Source of the DNA: Cyanobium sp. E1_MAG_00006
Lineage (GTDB): Bacteria; Cyanobacteriota; Cyanobacteriia; PCC-6307; Cyanobiaceae
Length of the DNA: 64,000 nt
Direction of reading: 5' to 3'
Assembly: GCA_027488975.1 (NCBI GenBank)
Contig: JAIYAQ010000024.1
Coordinates: forward strand, 62,001 to 126,000
Both the position numbers and the translations under genes were made by a program. Numbering within the stretch: position 1 is the stretch's first letter; every line of letters begins with the position of its first letter. Shown in pieces: positions 5,453 to 64,000 of the stretch. The notes under the pieces are model-generated. The model searched no databases, was not told the origin of the DNA, and saw only the letters and a list, made by a program, of their open reading frames with translations.

Positions 5453-6532
5453 TCAGGCCGGGTAATAGAAAAAAGCGGTGGCCAGGATGGCGTAGGTGGC
5501 CAGCAGCAGCACCCCCTCGAGCCAGTTGGAGCGGGCTTCGATGCTCACCAGATTCACGATCAACACCCCCAGCCCCAGGGCGATCACCTCGAATCCGGTG
5601 AAATCCAGGTCCATCGGCTGACCGATGGCGGAGGCGATCAGCACCAGGGCCGGTGCCATCAGCAACGCCACCAGCAGACTGGAGCCCATCGCCAGCTGCA
5701 GTGGCAGATCCATCTGATTGCGCAGGGCACCACGCACCGCCGGCACGTATTCCGAGAAGCCACCCACGATCGGGATCACGATCACACCGGTGAACAGCGG
5801 CGAGAGGCCCAGGGCAGCGGTGGCGGGCTGCAGGCTGGTCACGAACACCTCCGACTGCAGCGCCAGACCGGCAGTGCTGAACAGCAGCAGGGCGATCCAG
5901 GGCAGCAGGCCCGAACCGCGCTGGCCATTGGCTTCCGCATCACCCGCCTCAAGCAGCAGATGGGGCGGCTCGAACAGGTGGTTGTGGGTCACCAGCGAGA
6001 ACACCAGGGTGAGCAGGTAGATCACGATCAGGATCACGGCCACCGTGAGCGAGAGGCCGTGGATCGCCACCACGTCATCGATACCGGAGGTGGAGATCAA
6101 GGCGGCCGGCAGGGCCAGGGCGATCACCGCCAGGGTCATGGCGGCGCCATTGGTGCGCACCACCGCGGGCTGGAAGTGCTGCTCGGCGTAGCGCAGGCCA
6201 CCGCACAGCATCGCCATGCCCGTGACCAGAAGCACATCGGAAAGGATCGCGCCGGTGATGCTGGCCTTCACCACATCGATCAGTCCCTGGCGCAGGGCGG
6301 TGATGGCGATGATCAGCTCGGCGAAGTTACCGAACACGGCAGTGCACAGGGCGCCCACGGTGGGGCCGCTGCGCTCGGCAATGGCCTCGGTGGCCTGGCT
6401 GAGCAGCAGAGCAAAAGGAATGATTCCCGCGCCTGCCAGCACGAACACCAGCAGATCGGAGGCTCCCCGCTGCTCGGCGAGCAGCGACAGGGGCAGCAGC
6501 ACCAGCAGGGGGAAAAGGAGCTTGCGCGTCAC
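5453..6532 (-). CDS. CAX-type Ca2+/H+ antiporter family protein
   Basis: A 359-residue protein of about eleven hydrophobic segments with the two inverted alpha-repeat regions of the Ca2+:cation antiporter superfamily. The first repeat has GNFAELIIA, matching the GNxxE motif. The second has GGFSEYVPAV where classical CAX proteins carry GNxxE followed by His. In repeat one, the position normally Asn before LLV is Asp (LSDVLLV). The fold assignment is firm, but these changes at ion-coordinating positions make Ca2+ specificity uncertain. It is transcribed divergently from the HAD phosphatase gene with a 63-base gap. Confidence 0.85.
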   Translation of the reverse strand: MTRKLLFPLLVLLPLSLLAEQRGASDLLVFVLAGAGIIPFALLLSQATEAIAERSGPTVGALCTAVFGNFAELIIAITALRQGLIDVVKASITGAILSDVLLVTGMAMLCGGLRYAEQHFQPAVVRTNGAAMTLAVIALALPAALISTSGIDDVVAIHGLSLTVAVILIVIYLLTLVFSLVTHNHLFEPPHLLLEAGDAEANGQRGSGLLPWIALLLFSTAGLALQSEVFVTSLQPATAALGLSPLFTGVIVIPIVGGFSEYVPAVRGALRNQMDLPLQLAMGSSLLVALLMAPALVLIASAIGQPMDLDFTGFEVIALGLGVLIVNLVSIEARSNWLEGVLLLATYAILATAFFYYPA

Positions 6533-57711: not shown

Positions 57712-60009
57712 GTGCTGGCTCAGCTCGACTGGATGGTGGACGATGCCCAGCGCCTGGCGGAATGCCGGCACGACCACCCCTTCGCCGTGCTCGGGCCGCA
57801 GCCACTGGAGAACGGCAACTGGGTGGTGCGGGTGTGGATGCCCGAAGCCGAACGGGTTGAACTGATGACCGGGGGCAACGCCATCGCCATGGCGACCCCC
57901 AACCACCCCTGGATCTTCGAGAGCGAACTCCACGCCGATCCCGGCAGCGGTTACCAGGTGCATGTGCTGCGCGGTGGCGTCGAGCACGTGGCCCATGACC
58001 CCTGGGCCTTCCGCGAGGAGTGGATGGGGGAGCTGGATCGCCATCTGTTCGCCGAGGGCAACCACCACCACGTCTGGGAGCGGATGGGTGCGCACGTCAC
58101 CACCCGCAACGGTGTGGCGGGGGTGATGTTCTGCCTGTGGGCGCCCAATGCCCGCAGCGTGTCGGTGCTGGGCAACTTCAACAGCTGGGATGGACGCCAC
58201 CATCCGATGCAGTCCCGCCTGGGCGGTTGCTGGGAGCTGTTCATCCCCGGCATGAAGCCTGGTGAGATCTACAAGTACGAAGTCCGTACCCAGGCCGGCC
58301 ACTGCTATCAGAAGGCCGACCCCTACGGCTTCCGCCACGAGGTGCGGCCCAACAACGGCTCGATCGTCGAAGCCCTGGCTGGCTACGAATGGGGTGATGG
58401 CGGCTGGATGCAGGAGCGCGACAGCCGCAATCCGCTCGATCAGCCGATCTCTGTGTATGAGATGCACCTGGGCAGCTGGATGCATGCCAGCGCCGATCAG
58501 CCCTACATCGAGCCAGACGGCACCCCGCGTCCGCCCGTGCCGGCGGCCGACCTCAAGCCCGGCGCCCGCCTGCTCACCTACCCGGAACTGGCGGATCGGG
58601 TGATCCCCTATGTGAAGGCGCGCGGCTTCACCCACATCGAGCTGATGCCCCTCTCTGAGCACCCGTTCGACGGCTCCTGGGGCTATCAGGTGACCGGCTG
58701 GTACGCGCCCACCAGCCGCTTCGGCACACCGGATGAGTTCCGCGCCTTCGTGGATCGCTGCCATGCCGAAGGCATCGGCGTGATCCTCGACTGGGTCCCC
58801 GGCCATTTCCCCAAGGATGCCCATGGCCTGGCTTTCTTCGATGGTGCCCACCTGTATGAGCACGCCGATCCGCGCATCGGCGAGCACAAGGAATGGGGCA
58901 CGCTGATCTTCAACTACAGCCGCAACGAAGTTCGCAACTTCCTGGTGGCGAACCTCGTCTACTGGTTCGAGCACTTCCACATCGACGGCATCCGCGTCGA
59001 CGCGGTGGCCTCGATGCTCTACCGCGACTACCTGCGCCCCGATGGTGAGTGGATCGCCAACGAGCACGGCGGCCGTGAGAACACGGAGGCGGTGCACTTC
59101 CTGCAGCAGGCCAATCACGTGCTGTTCCAGCACTACCCCGGAGCCCTTTCGATCGCCGAGGAATCCACCACCTGGCCGATGGTCACCCAGCCCACCAGCA
59201 TCGGCGGCTTGGGCTTCAACCTGAAATGGAACATGGGTTGGATGCACGACATGCTCGATTACTTCGAGCTCGATCCGTGGTTCCGCCAGTTCCACCAGAA
59301 CAACGTGACGTTCTCGATCTGGTACGCCTACACCGAGAATTTCATGCTCGCCCTCAGCCACGATGAGGTGGTGCACGGCAAGAGCAACCTGCTGCACAAG
59401 ATGCCGGGGGACGACTGGCAGAAGTTCGCCAACGTGCGTGCCCTGCTGGCCTACATGTGGACCCACCCGGGCAAGAAGACGATCTTCATGGGCATGGAAT
59501 TCGGCCAGCGGGCCGAATGGAATGTCTGGGGCGATCTGGAGTGGGGCCTGCTCCAGTACGAGCCGCACCTGGGCCTGCAGCGCCTGGTGGACGACCTCAA
59601 CACCTTCTACAAGGCGGAGCCAGCCCTCTGGCGCGACGACTTCGACCAGTTCGGCTTCCAGTGGATCGACTGCAACGACAACCGCCACTCGGTGATCTCG
59701 TTCATGCGCCGCGAGAGCACCACCGGCCGCTGGCTGGTGATCGTGGCCAACTTCACCCCCCAGAGCCACTCCCACTACCGGGTGGGCGTGCCGATGGAGG
59801 GCTACTACGCCGAGGTGTTCAACACCGATGCGGAGCGCTACGGCGGCAGCAACCTGGGCAACCTGGGCGGAAAGTTCACCGACCAGTGGGGCATCCACGG
59901 CTACGAGCACTCGCTCGACCTCTGCCTACCGCCCCTCTCGGTGCTGGTATTGCAACGCGATGAGCATCTCAGTTTAAGCGGCGTAGTCTCAAGCTCCACC
60001 CCACTTTGA
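57712..60009 (+). CDS. glgB: 1,4-alpha-glucan branching enzyme
   Basis: A 765-residue GH13 enzyme introducing alpha-1,6 branches in glycogen. The N-terminal CBM48-type modules cover about 1-250. The catalytic barrel carries [19 protein letters not shown] (nucleophile Asp), [10 protein letters not shown] (acid Glu) and [11 protein letters not shown] (third Asp), followed by a C-terminal beta domain. Length is normal for the two-module form. It starts with GTG 57712; an ATG further in (MVDDAQRL, codon 8) is an alternative. Confidence 0.97.
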
Positions 60010-61156
60010 ATAGACGCCAACCAGAAGTGATAGCCCCGCTGAGTACGAGATGACTTTTCCCTAAGGGATAGTTTCGACTACTTCTAAGGGGCTCACTGGC
60101 TCATGTGAGTGCCATGAGTTTTAATCGCTGGCCTGGGTAAATCCTGGGCTGTCAAGCTCTTCATTCGGTCTCTCTGAACAAGATAGCTTGACTTTGTCTT
60201 TGTAGAAGCGGCAGTTCGCCTCTTGATCATGCAAGTAGTTGTCTTATCGGGGGTTATGGCGATGCTGACCTTGTCAAGCTGTGTAAAGTGCATCAATCCT
60301 GAAGCTTATTTTCTGCGCTCTTGTGGAGCTTTGCCTGCTATTTGGCAGCCATCGCTTCGTTGTTAATGCCTGGTTAATTCGTTTGAATTCATTGTAAGCC
60401 GGCCTGATCAACCCCTATAGCTCTCATAAGGATTGGAGCGGTAAAGGGGGGAACGTCATCACGGTCTTGATGCTGTGCCGCCCTAGTGGCAGCAGCAACC
60501 TTGCGCGGCCGTTCACAGATCGGAGGGGTACGGTGCGCGTAGCCATGTTGCGCCACCTAAAGAACGAGCTTCTCCAAAGATGCTGGAGCTCCTCCGGCCT
60601 GAGGCCATAGGCCGGACGCTGATCGTCGGTGCCCAGCAACCGCCGCACCTGGCGCAACCACTAAAGGCCAGCAGGGTTGCAACCTCTTTCCCCACTGCTA
60701 CTGGGCCAGCACCTCAACCTTTTCCCAAGTACTGGTAGCCCATTGCCCAGCAGCTTCCAATTGCAATGCACCAAGCTGGAATGATGGCGACCGCTTAAAT
60801 GGCGGTTAGGGCGAAAAATGCTGCAGTGGAGCGGAAGCAAACCCAAAGAATGGATCGCAAGGTGAGTTTTCCTTGGTGTCGATGAATGCCATTCTTTGCT
60901 GCAGAAAACATTTAGGCCGAATGCAGAAATAGCAGAAATGCCGACCAGATGCAAAGGCAGCGCGCTAGCATTAGAAGCAGTAATGGCGCTAGATGATCAA
61001 TGCATTCTGGATAAAGAAATAATCTTTACTGTAGCTTTGATTGTTGGGTTTTGTGATCGCGATAAGGGCTTATGTTTAAAAATGAGATCAATATATTCCA
61101 TGAAATCAAATTAATGAACATCGAGATATCAAATCACGCGAATCACCTAGTAATGG
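60010..61156. other. AT-richer gap without supported gene
   Basis: Between glgB and the small peptide gene no convincing coding region is seen. Short open frames occur on both strands but show no recognisable domain or good ribosome site. Composition changes strongly: bases 61081-61140 have 18 G+C of 60, against the GC-rich rest. A loose stem AGCCCC/GGGGCT (60032-60037 with 60088-60093) lies just after glgB and may aid termination. It may be decayed or horizontally acquired DNA. Confidence 0.6.
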
Positions 61157-61330
61157 CTAGGATCCAAGTCTAGTAGGCAAAGTAGGTGCAAGGTCTGGGT
61201 CTGTAATTTCGTCTCCGAAAGGAGCTTTGCTGCCAGCCGTATTCCCCGCCGCCATCGGCGAAATCTTCGGAGTGATCCACTCCAGCTTTTCTTGAGTGGG
61301 CATCAAGTCATCGCTGTCAGCAGAAGTCAT
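61157..61330 (-). CDS. putative RiPP (lasso-type, paeninodin-like) precursor peptide
   Basis: A 57-residue peptide with a leader/core organisation. Leader motif residues are Trp18, Pro21 and Ile23 (EKLEWITPKI), with Thr31 at position -2. The proposed core starts at Gly33: GSKAPFGDE, placing Asp40 at core 8 and Glu41 at core 9, the positions used for the macrolactam in lasso peptides. The core ends in Ser57, as in precursors whose terminal Ser is phosphorylated by HPr-kinase-like enzymes. The frame continues to GTG 61351, but ATG 61330 gives the shorter product. A neighbouring kinase and sulfotransferase on the same strand support a RiPP role. The peptide itself has no database check here. Confidence 0.62.
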   Translation of the reverse strand: MTSADSDDLMPTQEKLEWITPKISPMAAGNTAGSKAPFGDEITDPDLAPTLPTRLGS

Positions 61331-61446
61331 AAGTCTTGTGGTAATCCTCACTCCACTTTAAACGCTTCTAAGCACCCAGGTAACCCCCAGCACTGCCACA
61401 AATCCAAGTGCCCATTGATTTTTCAGCCCCCCAGCAGCGGTGCCTT

Positions 61447-61468
61447 GAAAACGCCGCAAGGAGGCGTT
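61447..61468 (-). terminator. possible attenuator/terminator between sulfotransferase and precursor genes
   Basis: On the minus strand a 6-bp stem AACGCC/GGCGTT (61450-61455 with 61463-61468) is followed by a short T run. It lies 33 bases after the sulfotransferase stop and about 120 before the precursor ATG. It may partly separate precursor expression from the upstream genes; a short stem makes this weak. Confidence 0.4.
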
Positions 61469-61500
61469 GATGGGCTTCGAGGGGCATGCGTCACTGCGTC

Positions 61501-62418
61501 TCAGGCTGCCACTGATGGGTTCAGCGCGTAGCCAAAACGAATCAGCGTTTCCGAGAAAGCCTCCTCGAGTTGCAGCATCTGTTCAGCCGTGAGCTGCTCA
61601 CGGCCCTCACCGCTACGGCCAGACCTGAAAAAACGCTCACATCCCTCCGGTTTCTCGCGAAAGCCGCCTTCTTCTTCTTCCTTGGCGCGGAGCTTGTCGA
61701 AGCGTGTGTTGGCCGTGGCCTCCCTGATCAGGGCCACGTCCGTCGGTAGGTCGAGAAACTGGGCCAAGCGTGTGAACTCAGAATTTGGTTTTGCCAGTAG
61801 ATTTTCGTAGCGGAGCAGCAGCACGGGGATCAATGGTTGATCGACCCAGCTCTGCACATGGTTGGCCCACGTTCCCATGAACTGACGCACCTGCTGGCCG
61901 CCGCGTTTACTAGACCTGCACAACCCAGCCTGTTCGTCCAGTAAAAATTCCACGCAACGTTCGTTGGGCCATGAGAAGAAATGGCTTAGAGACACGGCCA
62001 CATCTGCAGGATGGCGAATGACCACAACCGCACCGCGGCAGCTTTCCACTGGCACTACGGGGCGTCCGCCGGAATCAGCACTCACAAAGGCATCATGCAC
62101 TTTGTGATAACGCAAACAGTCCGCGTAGAGCGCTCGCTGGTGGCCCGCGCGCCCGCGTATTTTGTCGAGTTCAGCCCAGCTCAGGTCACTGCTGTCGATA
62201 CCCAGCTGATCATCGAGCCAGTGGCGACTGCTCACAATCGAGCCTGTGGCCAGGTCGCGATTGAGCCGCAGCTCCTGCTCCTCCTGTTGCGCTGCAGCAG
62301 TTGCTTCAGCGCTATCCAGCCGAGCTAAGCGACGCAGCTCAGTGATGAAAACCCGGCACCAGGTGTTGCCTGATTTTGGGTAGCTGGCCAGATACCAATA
62401 GGGCTCATGGGCACTCAT
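61501..62418 (-). CDS. PAPS-dependent sulfotransferase
   Basis: A 305-residue sulfotransferase that would move a sulfuryl group from PAPS to a hydroxyl or amine. The 5'-phosphosulfate loop is YLASYPKSGNTWCRVFI (about 9-25) and the 3'-phosphate region is VVVIRHPADVAVSLSHFF (about 131-148); a C-terminal RSGRSGEGRE segment resembles the third PAPS motif. The acceptor is unknown. Its ATG overlaps the HPr-kinase-like gene stop (ATGA), so the two are coupled, and the peptide gene lies downstream. In this context, sulfation of the peptide product is the leading hypothesis. Confidence 0.88.
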   Translation of the reverse strand: MSAHEPYWYLASYPKSGNTWCRVFITELRRLARLDSAEATAAAQQEEQELRLNRDLATGSIVSSRHWLDDQLGIDSSDLSWAELDKIRGRAGHQRALYADCLRYHKVHDAFVSADSGGRPVVPVESCRGAVVVIRHPADVAVSLSHFFSWPNERCVEFLLDEQAGLCRSSKRGGQQVRQFMGTWANHVQSWVDQPLIPVLLLRYENLLAKPNSEFTRLAQFLDLPTDVALIREATANTRFDKLRAKEEEEGGFREKPEGCERFFRSGRSGEGREQLTAEQMLQLEEAFSETLIRFGYALNPSVAA

Positions 62419-63374
62419 GCCGTCACCAACGCTGCGGCCATCAGCAGATCCTGCCCTTGCAGCCAGCGCTGCATGGCAGCAATGCCCTGGGGCAGCGGCA
62501 GTGTTGCCATTGGTACCCGCTGCTGCAGCCTCGCTAAGGCCATGAAGTTCGGGCCCTCCTGGCCCAAGCCGCGCACAAACCGTGGCCGAAACGCCTGATT
62601 GCGCAGGCGCAGCGCCGCCGTTTTCTGGCTGGTGATACGGGTGATCTGGCCAGCATCGGGAGCTGCCCTGTCGGGGCGGTGCTGGTGAATCACATACATT
62701 GCCTGCAGGGGCGCCGATTGGGGTGCTCGCTGAAGGGCATCCCCCATCAGTAGATATTTGTGCATTCCCTGCCGGATCGGTGGCAAGCGATCCGGATCCA
62801 AGCCAAAGGCTTTGGCGGCGTCATGCCAGAGCTTGATCCGGGGGATGCCAGGTAGCACCAGCCCCTCAGGGCTCACCGCTACCAGATCGTCGGCCAGGAG
62901 CCGCCAGCCCTGCTGCATGAGCGCGTAGGCCAGGGTGGATTTACCGGCGCCGGAATGGCCCATGCACACGATGGCTTTGCCATCCTTTTCCAGCGCATTG
63001 CCATGCAGCACGAAGGTGCCGCGCTGAATCAGCAAGGCCCCCACCGCTGAACCGAGCAGAAAAGTGGTGATGTCCTGGTCACTCACGCCGCTGTGCTGCC
63101 GGTGCCAGGCGATGCGCTCCCCACCGGTGATCCGAAATCGCCCGATGTCGTCCACCGTGAGCCGCAAATCGCCGCGGGCCATCTGCAGGAAGGGCGTGTC
63201 GTGGGGCCCAGGCTCAAGCTGGGGCCAGCGGTCCGGCTCTTCGGGCCCGATCGCGACCAGTGGATCGGCTCCGGCAAAGGCTGCCAGCGAACAGCCTGGT
63301 AATTCAGGAATCGCCAGGCCGTCGGAGCGCCAGTTCAGCTCAAAAGCTCGGTAATGGGCCTGGCTGACGGTCAT
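62415..63374 (-). CDS. HPr-kinase-like (HprK-related) ATP-dependent kinase
   Basis: A 319-residue protein related to the C-terminal domain of HPr kinase. The P-loop is CMGHSGAGKSTLAYALMQQG (about 146-165), preceded by LHGNALEKDG (His conserved in this group) and followed by LLADDLVAVS (the Asp pair binding Mg). There is no phosphotransferase HPr context. In lasso-peptide clusters such kinases phosphorylate the C-terminal Ser of the precursor. Its own N-terminal domain (about 1-120) is not recognised. First gene of the minus-strand kinase-sulfotransferase-peptide unit; 56 bases from the divergent nucleotidyltransferase start. Confidence 0.88.
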   Translation of the reverse strand: MTVSQAHYRAFELNWRSDGLAIPELPGCSLAAFAGADPLVAIGPEEPDRWPQLEPGPHDTPFLQMARGDLRLTVDDIGRFRITGGERIAWHRQHSGVSDQDITTFLLGSAVGALLIQRGTFVLHGNALEKDGKAIVCMGHSGAGKSTLAYALMQQGWRLLADDLVAVSPEGLVLPGIPRIKLWHDAAKAFGLDPDRLPPIRQGMHKYLLMGDALQRAPQSAPLQAMYVIHQHRPDRAAPDAGQITRITSQKTAALRLRNQAFRPRFVRGLGQEGPNFMALARLQQRVPMATLPLPQGIAAMQRWLQGQDLLMAAALVTA

Positions 63375-63430: not shown

Positions 63431-64000
63431 GTGGACACCGCGTTGACACCAGCAGCCCTGGAGGCGACCAAGGCCCTGGTTCGGCTGGTGTTGCAGCGGG
63501 AACGGGAGGGCACCCTCGATGGTCCTGGGGGCGGCGCTCAGTTGCCTGCGGTCATTAGGCAGCAGCTGGATGCTGTGCCAATAGGAGAGCTGCTGGCCTC
63601 CATCCGGCGCCATCGCGTGGCAGGTCTCCTGCATGGTGATCCGCTCGTCGCCAGGCTGGTGCCGGATCTGGCACCCACGCTCCAGGCGTGGGCACGTCAG
63701 GACGCCATGGCGGCCCTGGCCCTCGCCGGCCTCACCCGCGAAATGGCGAGTCTGTTTGAGCAGGCCGCCATGCCCATGCTGGTGATCAAGGGCATCCCCC
63801 TGGCCCTGCAAACCACGGGCTCCCTCACCGCTCGCGGTCGCGGTGATCTGGATGTGCTGGTGGATCCCCAGCGTTTGCCGGAGGCTGTGGCGCTTTTGGA
63901 AGGTTCTGGCTTTCGCCGGTTGCCTGGCTACCTCCCTCGCAACTTAGACAGTTTTTGGGCGCGCTACGGCCGCTGGGCTGGCTATGAATTGTCAATGGTG
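63431..64000 (+). CDS. PF14907-type nucleotidyltransferase (5' part, cut by window end)
   Basis: The first 190 codons of a protein running past the window. GTG 63431 is preceded by an in-frame stop (63397-63399). The nucleotidyltransferase signature follows an N-terminal helical region: MPMLVIKGIPLALQTTGSLTARGRGDLDVLVDPQRLPEAVALLEGSGF (about 114-161). This matches the uncharacterised nucleotidyltransferase family often seen beside HPr-kinase-like genes in lasso-peptide loci. It might nucleotidylate the peptide or another substrate. The active site GS...DLD is intact as far as visible. Confidence 0.82.
   Translation, partial: MDTALTPAALEATKALVRLVLQREREGTLDGPGGGAQLPAVIRQQLDAVPIGELLASIRRHRVAGLLHGDPLVARLVPDLAPTLQAWARQDAMAALALAGLTREMASLFEQAAMPMLVIKGIPLALQTTGSLTARGRGDLDVLVDPQRLPEAVALLEGSGFRRLPGYLPRNLDSFWARYGRWAGYELSMV

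Follow-up and report, generated by a model that had tools for sequence, protein, structure and literature searches.

We describe here a short frame near the end of the window, by which we mean the whole stretch of 64,000 nucleotides that was analysed, together with the genes that lie beside it. The genome amounts to 2.70 Mb in 40 contigs, and the window covers positions 62001-126000 of the present contig, which continues to 137369, i.e. 11.4 kb beyond the window. Coordinates above 64000 are window numbering extended along the same contig. The genes and features, with assignments from Pfam and NCBIfam, are the following:

61157..61330 (stop included), minus strand: probable lasso-type precursor gene, 57 aa, on the basis of the frame and its homologues
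61235..61330, minus strand: precursor leader, 32 aa, with the end N-T(-2)-A(-1)
61262..61279, minus strand: W-I-T-P-K-I, putative RRE-binding motif at positions -15 to -10; W18 and P21 are invariant in nine aligned precursors
61160..61234, minus strand: core GSKAPFGDEITDPDLAPTLPTRLGS with Gly1, Asp8, Glu9 and C-terminal Ser25
61501..62418, minus strand: sulfotransferase, 305 aa (PF00685, 69.3 bits, cut-off 22)
62415..63374, minus strand: HPr-kinase-like protein (PF07475, 32.9 bits, cut-off 33.3; Walker A GHSGAGKST)
63431..64735, past the window end at 64000, plus strand: nucleotidyltransferase NTP_transf_5 (PF14907, 110.7 bits)
64605-65468, minus strand: family-2 glycosyltransferase (Glycos_transf_2, above the Pfam cut-off)
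65461-67311, minus strand: ABC exporter (ABC_tran, above the Pfam cut-off)
67408-68946, minus strand: asparagine-synthase-like cyclase (PF00733, 34.4 bits, cut-off 21)
68962-69393, minus strand: transglutaminase-like B2 protease (NF033537, 34.8 bits, cut-off 33; PF13471 above cut-off)
about 69390-69692 (start approximate), minus strand: PqqD-like RRE, B1 (PF05402, 62.3 bits, above cut-off)
about 69707-70909 (start chosen by us), minus strand: ATP-grasp-like protein (19.1 of 31.4 bits)

The precursor frame runs on the minus strand from an ATG at 61330 through 57 sense codons, the last of which ends at 61160, to a stop at 61159-61157, and encodes the leader MTSADSDDLMPTQEKLEWITPKISPMAAGNTA followed by the core. 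The features that had been predicted from the letters alone are all present in it: the W-x2-P-x-I motif (W18-I-T-P21-K-I23), Thr at -2 (T31, followed by A32 at -1), Gly at core position 1 (G33), acids at core positions 8 and 9 (D40/E41) and a C-terminal Ser (S57). The predicted core of 25 residues can likewise be read from the frame, from Gly1 to Ser25. An alternative GTG start in the list of open reading frames would give 64 aa from 61351. On sequence comparison this version is less likely than the ATG version, because in copies 1 and 2 of genome G262 and in genome G156 the frame opens one codon before the ATG, which makes the longer start impossible in these copies.

None of 3000 mononucleotide shuffles of 60010-61500 yielded a comparable frame, defined as one with W-x2-P-x-[ILV] and T-x-[GA] that is acidic at core position 8 or 9 and ends in S, and the whole 64-kb window holds one frame that has the motif and ends at most 60 aa from the W. 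Stronger support for the frame than these shuffles comes from two other genomes, where homologous frames follow the sulfotransferase. Searched against NCBIfam and Pfam, the precursor has no match at E≤1, not even to a curated precursor model of the paeninodin family.

A scan of 60000-61600 predicted no promoter (shuffles average 1.2) and a single terminator, which falls within the leader on the plus strand; shuffles give more (1.7). On the minus strand no terminator was predicted there, and thus the terminator-like hairpin seen 3' of two G262 precursors (GGGTCT-GCAA-AGACCC plus a T-run, L019:3661-3676 and 6049-6064) is not found at this one. A like sequence also lies 3' of the precursors of G357 (L036) and G286 (L037), and in the comparison of these three genomes the leader and the 3' end are conserved and the core between them is variable.

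We now consider the enzymes. The original prediction had expected an asparagine-synthase-like cyclase, a PqqD-like RRE and a transglutaminase-like protease past 64000, and had set their presence within about 15 kb beforehand as a test. All three were found, at 67408-69692, which is 6.1-8.4 kb from the precursor. The best NCBIfam match of the cyclase is the lasso cyclase model NF033535 (2.8e-11), with 42.7 bits against a cut-off of 525, and its relatives likewise score far below that cut-off. Aligned by hhalign with the cyclase of genome G268, which itself reaches a sub-cut-off 239 bits to NF033535, it gives 91% probability over 331 columns. The motifs SSG-[LI]-DS and SGFGGDQ are present in all seven aligned cyclases. 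In the B2 protease, C81, H116 and D121, which we take to be the catalytic residues, are invariant in five of five aligned proteins; the B2 proteins of two distant clusters fall below the B2 model cut-off. The best NCBIfam match of the RRE is lasso_PqqD_Bac (52.8 bits, below its cut-off of 80).

The HprK-like kinase lies 0.4 bits below the PF07475 cut-off and scores 55.5 bits of 200 with HprK_rel_A. For the ATP-grasp-like protein, four of five homologues match the same family, though its own match is well below the cut-off; an AlphaFold2 model from five sequences has a mean pLDDT of 37, too low for use. Sequence searches of the PDB with profiles of the ATP-grasp-like protein, the cyclase and B2 returned nothing at E 1, 0.01 and 0.1. 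Beside the cluster, at 72227-75370 (L002), there is a 1047-aa frame with repeated stretches that is adhesin-like by eye.

Relatives of the precursor occur in six of 400 family genomes by profile search and in four of 300 by sequence search, the present genome counted in both. Cyclase relatives (E≤1e-20) were found at six loci in five of 300 family genomes, including the present one. When the cyclase was searched across the phylum at E≤1e-60, with at most three candidates scored among the matches listed, these matches came from the present genome and G075, i.e. at least two of 386 genomes. The 20 other genomes of the same genus covered by the cyclase and precursor searches contain no relatives, and the distribution is thus patchy. 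A Synechococcus sp. UW140 MAG carries the cyclase side of the cluster. In viral_contigs, scanned with an alignment of the precursors, there were 36 pattern matches, none of them a relative.

The most complete counterpart is the main cluster of G137, where every gene of the set is present and the order is unchanged; the proteins are 61-94% identical, the precursor comes after the sulfotransferase, and cyclase and exporter are about 2.4 kb apart. In G262, one contig (C142) carries a partial nucleotidyltransferase, the kinase, the sulfotransferase and three precursors, and another (C100, 5.4 kb) the ATP-grasp-like gene, RRE, B2 and cyclase; the two pieces presumably form one cluster, and the exporter and glycosyltransferase are absent from the pieces examined. 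A second cluster in G137 is 41-69% identical, is without the ATP-grasp-like gene, and has a candidate precursor behind the cyclase. The cluster of G259, an AT-rich 1.7-Mb genome (GC 0.29 over 19 kb), has no glycosyltransferase match and a W-x2-P-x-L frame directly 3' of the sulfotransferase. Judged from its sequence, the set in G075 looks broken. Its kinase frame is disrupted, frames that by eye resemble transposases separate the precursor from the cyclase, and neither B2 nor RRE was detected within the 19 kb examined.

A 263-aa transposase-like frame, presumably of the RAYT/Y1 type by its motifs, lies near the G357 precursors (L036:1773-2561), and fragments of it lie near precursors of G262 (L019:3887-4267), G286 (L037:588-935) and G137 (L018:19592-19705). 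Such a frame might be linked to precursor duplication. By tblastn at 0.01 the 263-aa frame is absent from the window and from the G156 stretch L021.

The leader and the core differ strongly in their conservation. Over the 32 leader residues, the five full-length members have a mean ungapped identity of 82% (72-91%), and over the first 18 core residues the same five have 21% (11-33%). Summed over ten pairs, the leader pN is 0.10 and pS 0.24, and T31 and G33 are fixed in all five. It had been proposed that the frame, the motif and the core acid would be conserved in relatives bearing the kinase and the sulfotransferase. This holds for the frame and the leader motif, but the acid at 8 or 9 is kept in the three copies of G262 and not in the G137 main cluster; among the more distant clusters, the second one of G137 and that of G259 have it as well. 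A C-terminal Ser, as read, is present in eight of the eleven cores. The other three are G262 copy 3, which ends in Gln, G357 copy 2, which runs past GPS with no stop codon, and G156 (L021:1525-1647), whose core is cut by an in-frame stop beyond which the family GPS end is kept. With a fixed leader and free cores among its substrates, the cyclase might tolerate a wide range of them.

The same eleven cores, with G156 read across its in-frame stop and the degenerate copy 1 of G357 dropped for want of a usable junction, bear on the ring position. Asp or Glu stands at position 9 in eight, at position 8 in two and at position 7 in one of them, and no set of within-core shuffles among 20,000 reached eight acids at position 9, in a test that ignores relatedness. 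In the cores of the leader family Glu9 is found in five of eight (p 0.00075 by the same shuffle, which again ignores relatedness). From sequence, Gly1-Glu9 would therefore be the best ring and Asp8 the second choice, and the ring size of 8 or 9 proposed earlier can be refined, with Glu9 rather than Asp8 as the recurrent acid. A correct precursor with closure at Asp8, giving an 8-residue ring, is a minor but real possibility. Asp8 is present in this core and in the G075 precursor, 8-residue rings exist (e.g. caulosegnin I, in the cited passage of PMC13352647), and two of the eight position-9 acids, those of the G137 second cluster and G075, count as Glu9 only if Ser is residue 1, and shift to position 8 if the Gly that follows it is. 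Against it stand the counts themselves, since both cores with an acid at 8, the present one and G075, also carry Glu9.

Some cores depart from the pattern. The core of the G137 main cluster (L018:17758-17934) has its first acid at position 12 despite a full cluster, G357 copy 2 has an acid at 10 and none at 7-9, and the G286 core has Lys1 instead of Gly1 and an acid at 7; for these three, either decay or rings of another kind may be the explanation. The G259 precursor has Ile at -2 instead of Thr.

With Gly1-Glu9 as the preferred ring, we are highly confident that the frame encodes a lasso-type RiPP precursor, and for its maturation we propose the following route, every chemical step of which we infer from family knowledge. 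The PqqD-like RRE would bind the W-x2-P-x-I motif of the leader, and the B2 protease, guided by Thr(-2), would cleave after Ala(-1). The asparagine-synthase-like enzyme would use ATP to activate the side chain of Glu9 and join it to the Gly1 amine, which would give a 9-residue ring and a 16-residue tail; the calculated mass of the core less one water is 2536.28 Da. The HprK-like kinase would then phosphorylate Ser25, the nucleotidyltransferase would add a sugar to the phosphate, the family-2 glycosyltransferase and the sulfotransferase would probably elaborate the sugar-phosphate, and the ABC protein would export the product. In the cited part of PMC10368454, the acid used for closure of lasso rings stands at positions 7-9, and processing is guided by Thr(-2), to which Ile(-2) is an exception; the present precursor has the aromatic-x2-P motif, T(-2), a small residue 1 and Asp/Glu at 7-9. 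The C-terminal Ser fits the HprK-like kinase, and both halves of this tailoring pair are present, the kinase just below its cut-off. Tyr sulfation was considered and set aside, as the core has no Tyr, and sulfation, if any, would more likely fall on Ser/Thr or the sugar.

A different product from the same enzymes, namely a branched cyclic peptide without threading, or a crosslink of some other kind, in place of a threaded lasso, seems unlikely to us. The divergent and weakly scored cyclase lineage speaks for it, as do the ATP-grasp-like gene with its weak, sub-cut-off match, the lactams and lactones that ATP-grasp ligases make in graspetides (PMC8939145), and those relatives whose cores break the 7-9 acid rule; the gene triad is nevertheless that of lasso clusters, and T(-2), G1 and an acid at 7-9 are kept here. 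We reject as very improbable that the frame arose by chance or is a relict, with the true precursor elsewhere: the G357 and G156 copies do have a decayed appearance, and the stretches examined around the copies of G156 (20 kb), G286 and G357 yielded no cluster enzyme, but a motif scan of 17.4 kb gave just two further frames, which overlie large genes and do not resemble precursors, homologues lie 3' of the sulfotransferase in two related clusters, and the motif frame is absent from the 3000 shuffles.

The reading as a lasso precursor is thus supported by the cyclase/B2/RRE set together with the conserved frame and leader motif, and the locus is a probable precursor in what we consider, on sequence grounds, a divergent, tailoring-rich lasso type. 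The label "paeninodin type" given to it initially stands in part: the logic of kinase and C-terminal Ser agrees, whereas the precursor model is not matched and the cluster forms a divergent type of its own. Paeninodin (Paenibacillus) shares the lasso genes, the HprK-like kinase and the C-terminal Ser as kinase target (PMC8498205, in the passage cited). The present system differs in its cyanobacterial host, in a precursor without NCBIfam or Pfam match, and in the additional sulfotransferase, nucleotidyltransferase, glycosyltransferase and ATP-grasp-like genes.

According to the cited passages, HprK-like kinases phosphorylate a C-terminal Ser, to which a nucleotidyltransferase then adds a hexose, and in pseudomycoidin (Bacillus) the kinase and nucleotidyltransferase, both also found here, were shown to phosphoglycosylate the C-terminal Ser (PMC8498205, PMC9266682). 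The present cluster adds a family-2 glycosyltransferase and a sulfotransferase. Which enzyme moves the sugar was left open for pseudomycoidin in the cited part of PMC9266682, and the adjacent nucleotidyltransferase and glycosyltransferase would allow this to be tested. Sulfotransferase genes are present in Firmicutes lasso clusters, with a putative one at the cluster start (PMC8498205, citing Zhu 2016c); the phylum is different here, and the function is putative in both. In the passages searched, sulfotransferases are noted in lasso clusters and no functional test was found. BsfA (Bradymonadales) shares the aromatic-x2-P-x-aliphatic leader motif, at -17 to -12 against -15 to -10 here, as well as Gly1 and a kinase, and it differs in having Ile(-2), Asp8 and a phosphorylated Ser3, compared to Thr(-2) and probably Glu9 in the present precursor (PMC10368454, cited passages). 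The excerpts of PMC5067487 hold no passage on the leader motif, and those of PMC7761380 name lasso peptides only as a class.

Five candidate tailoring genes are present, namely kinase, nucleotidyltransferase, glycosyltransferase, sulfotransferase and the ATP-grasp-like gene. A fuller scenario for a picocyanobacterial lasso type, in which phosphorylation of the C-terminal Ser is followed by glycosylation through the cluster's nucleotidyltransferase and glycosyltransferase and then by sulfation, the ATP-grasp-like protein adds another bond, the precursor genes multiply with the leader fixed and the core free to vary, and the cores with acids at 10 or 12 form rings larger than 9, is speculative and, taken as a whole, improbable.

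Cyanobacterial lasso peptides are already known (PMC8600333, citing Tietz 2017, as excerpted), and in the open literature, covered by titles, abstract starts and cited passages, we found no description of the present cluster type; the lasso kind is thus known, and the cluster type is a divergent variant, which adds to the cyanobacterial lasso clusters. In the family, B2 proteins above cut-off occur in ten of 300 genomes, three of them of the present cluster type and seven of other types. Within 4.1-16.5 kb at each of these seven loci, tblastn at 1e-3 gave no relative of the present sulfotransferase, glycosyltransferase, ATP-grasp-like protein or cyclase. Relatives of the exporter and the HprK-like kinase are found at six of the seven and of the nucleotidyltransferase at five, and the candidate leaders are unlike the present one. 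At one locus, in G268 (L054:4423-10330), the exporter is 70% and the kinase, RRE and B2 are 50-52% identical to those of the present cluster, and the cyclase is different and longer (618 aa), an apparent case, as far as the sequences indicate, of cyclase exchange between otherwise related clusters.
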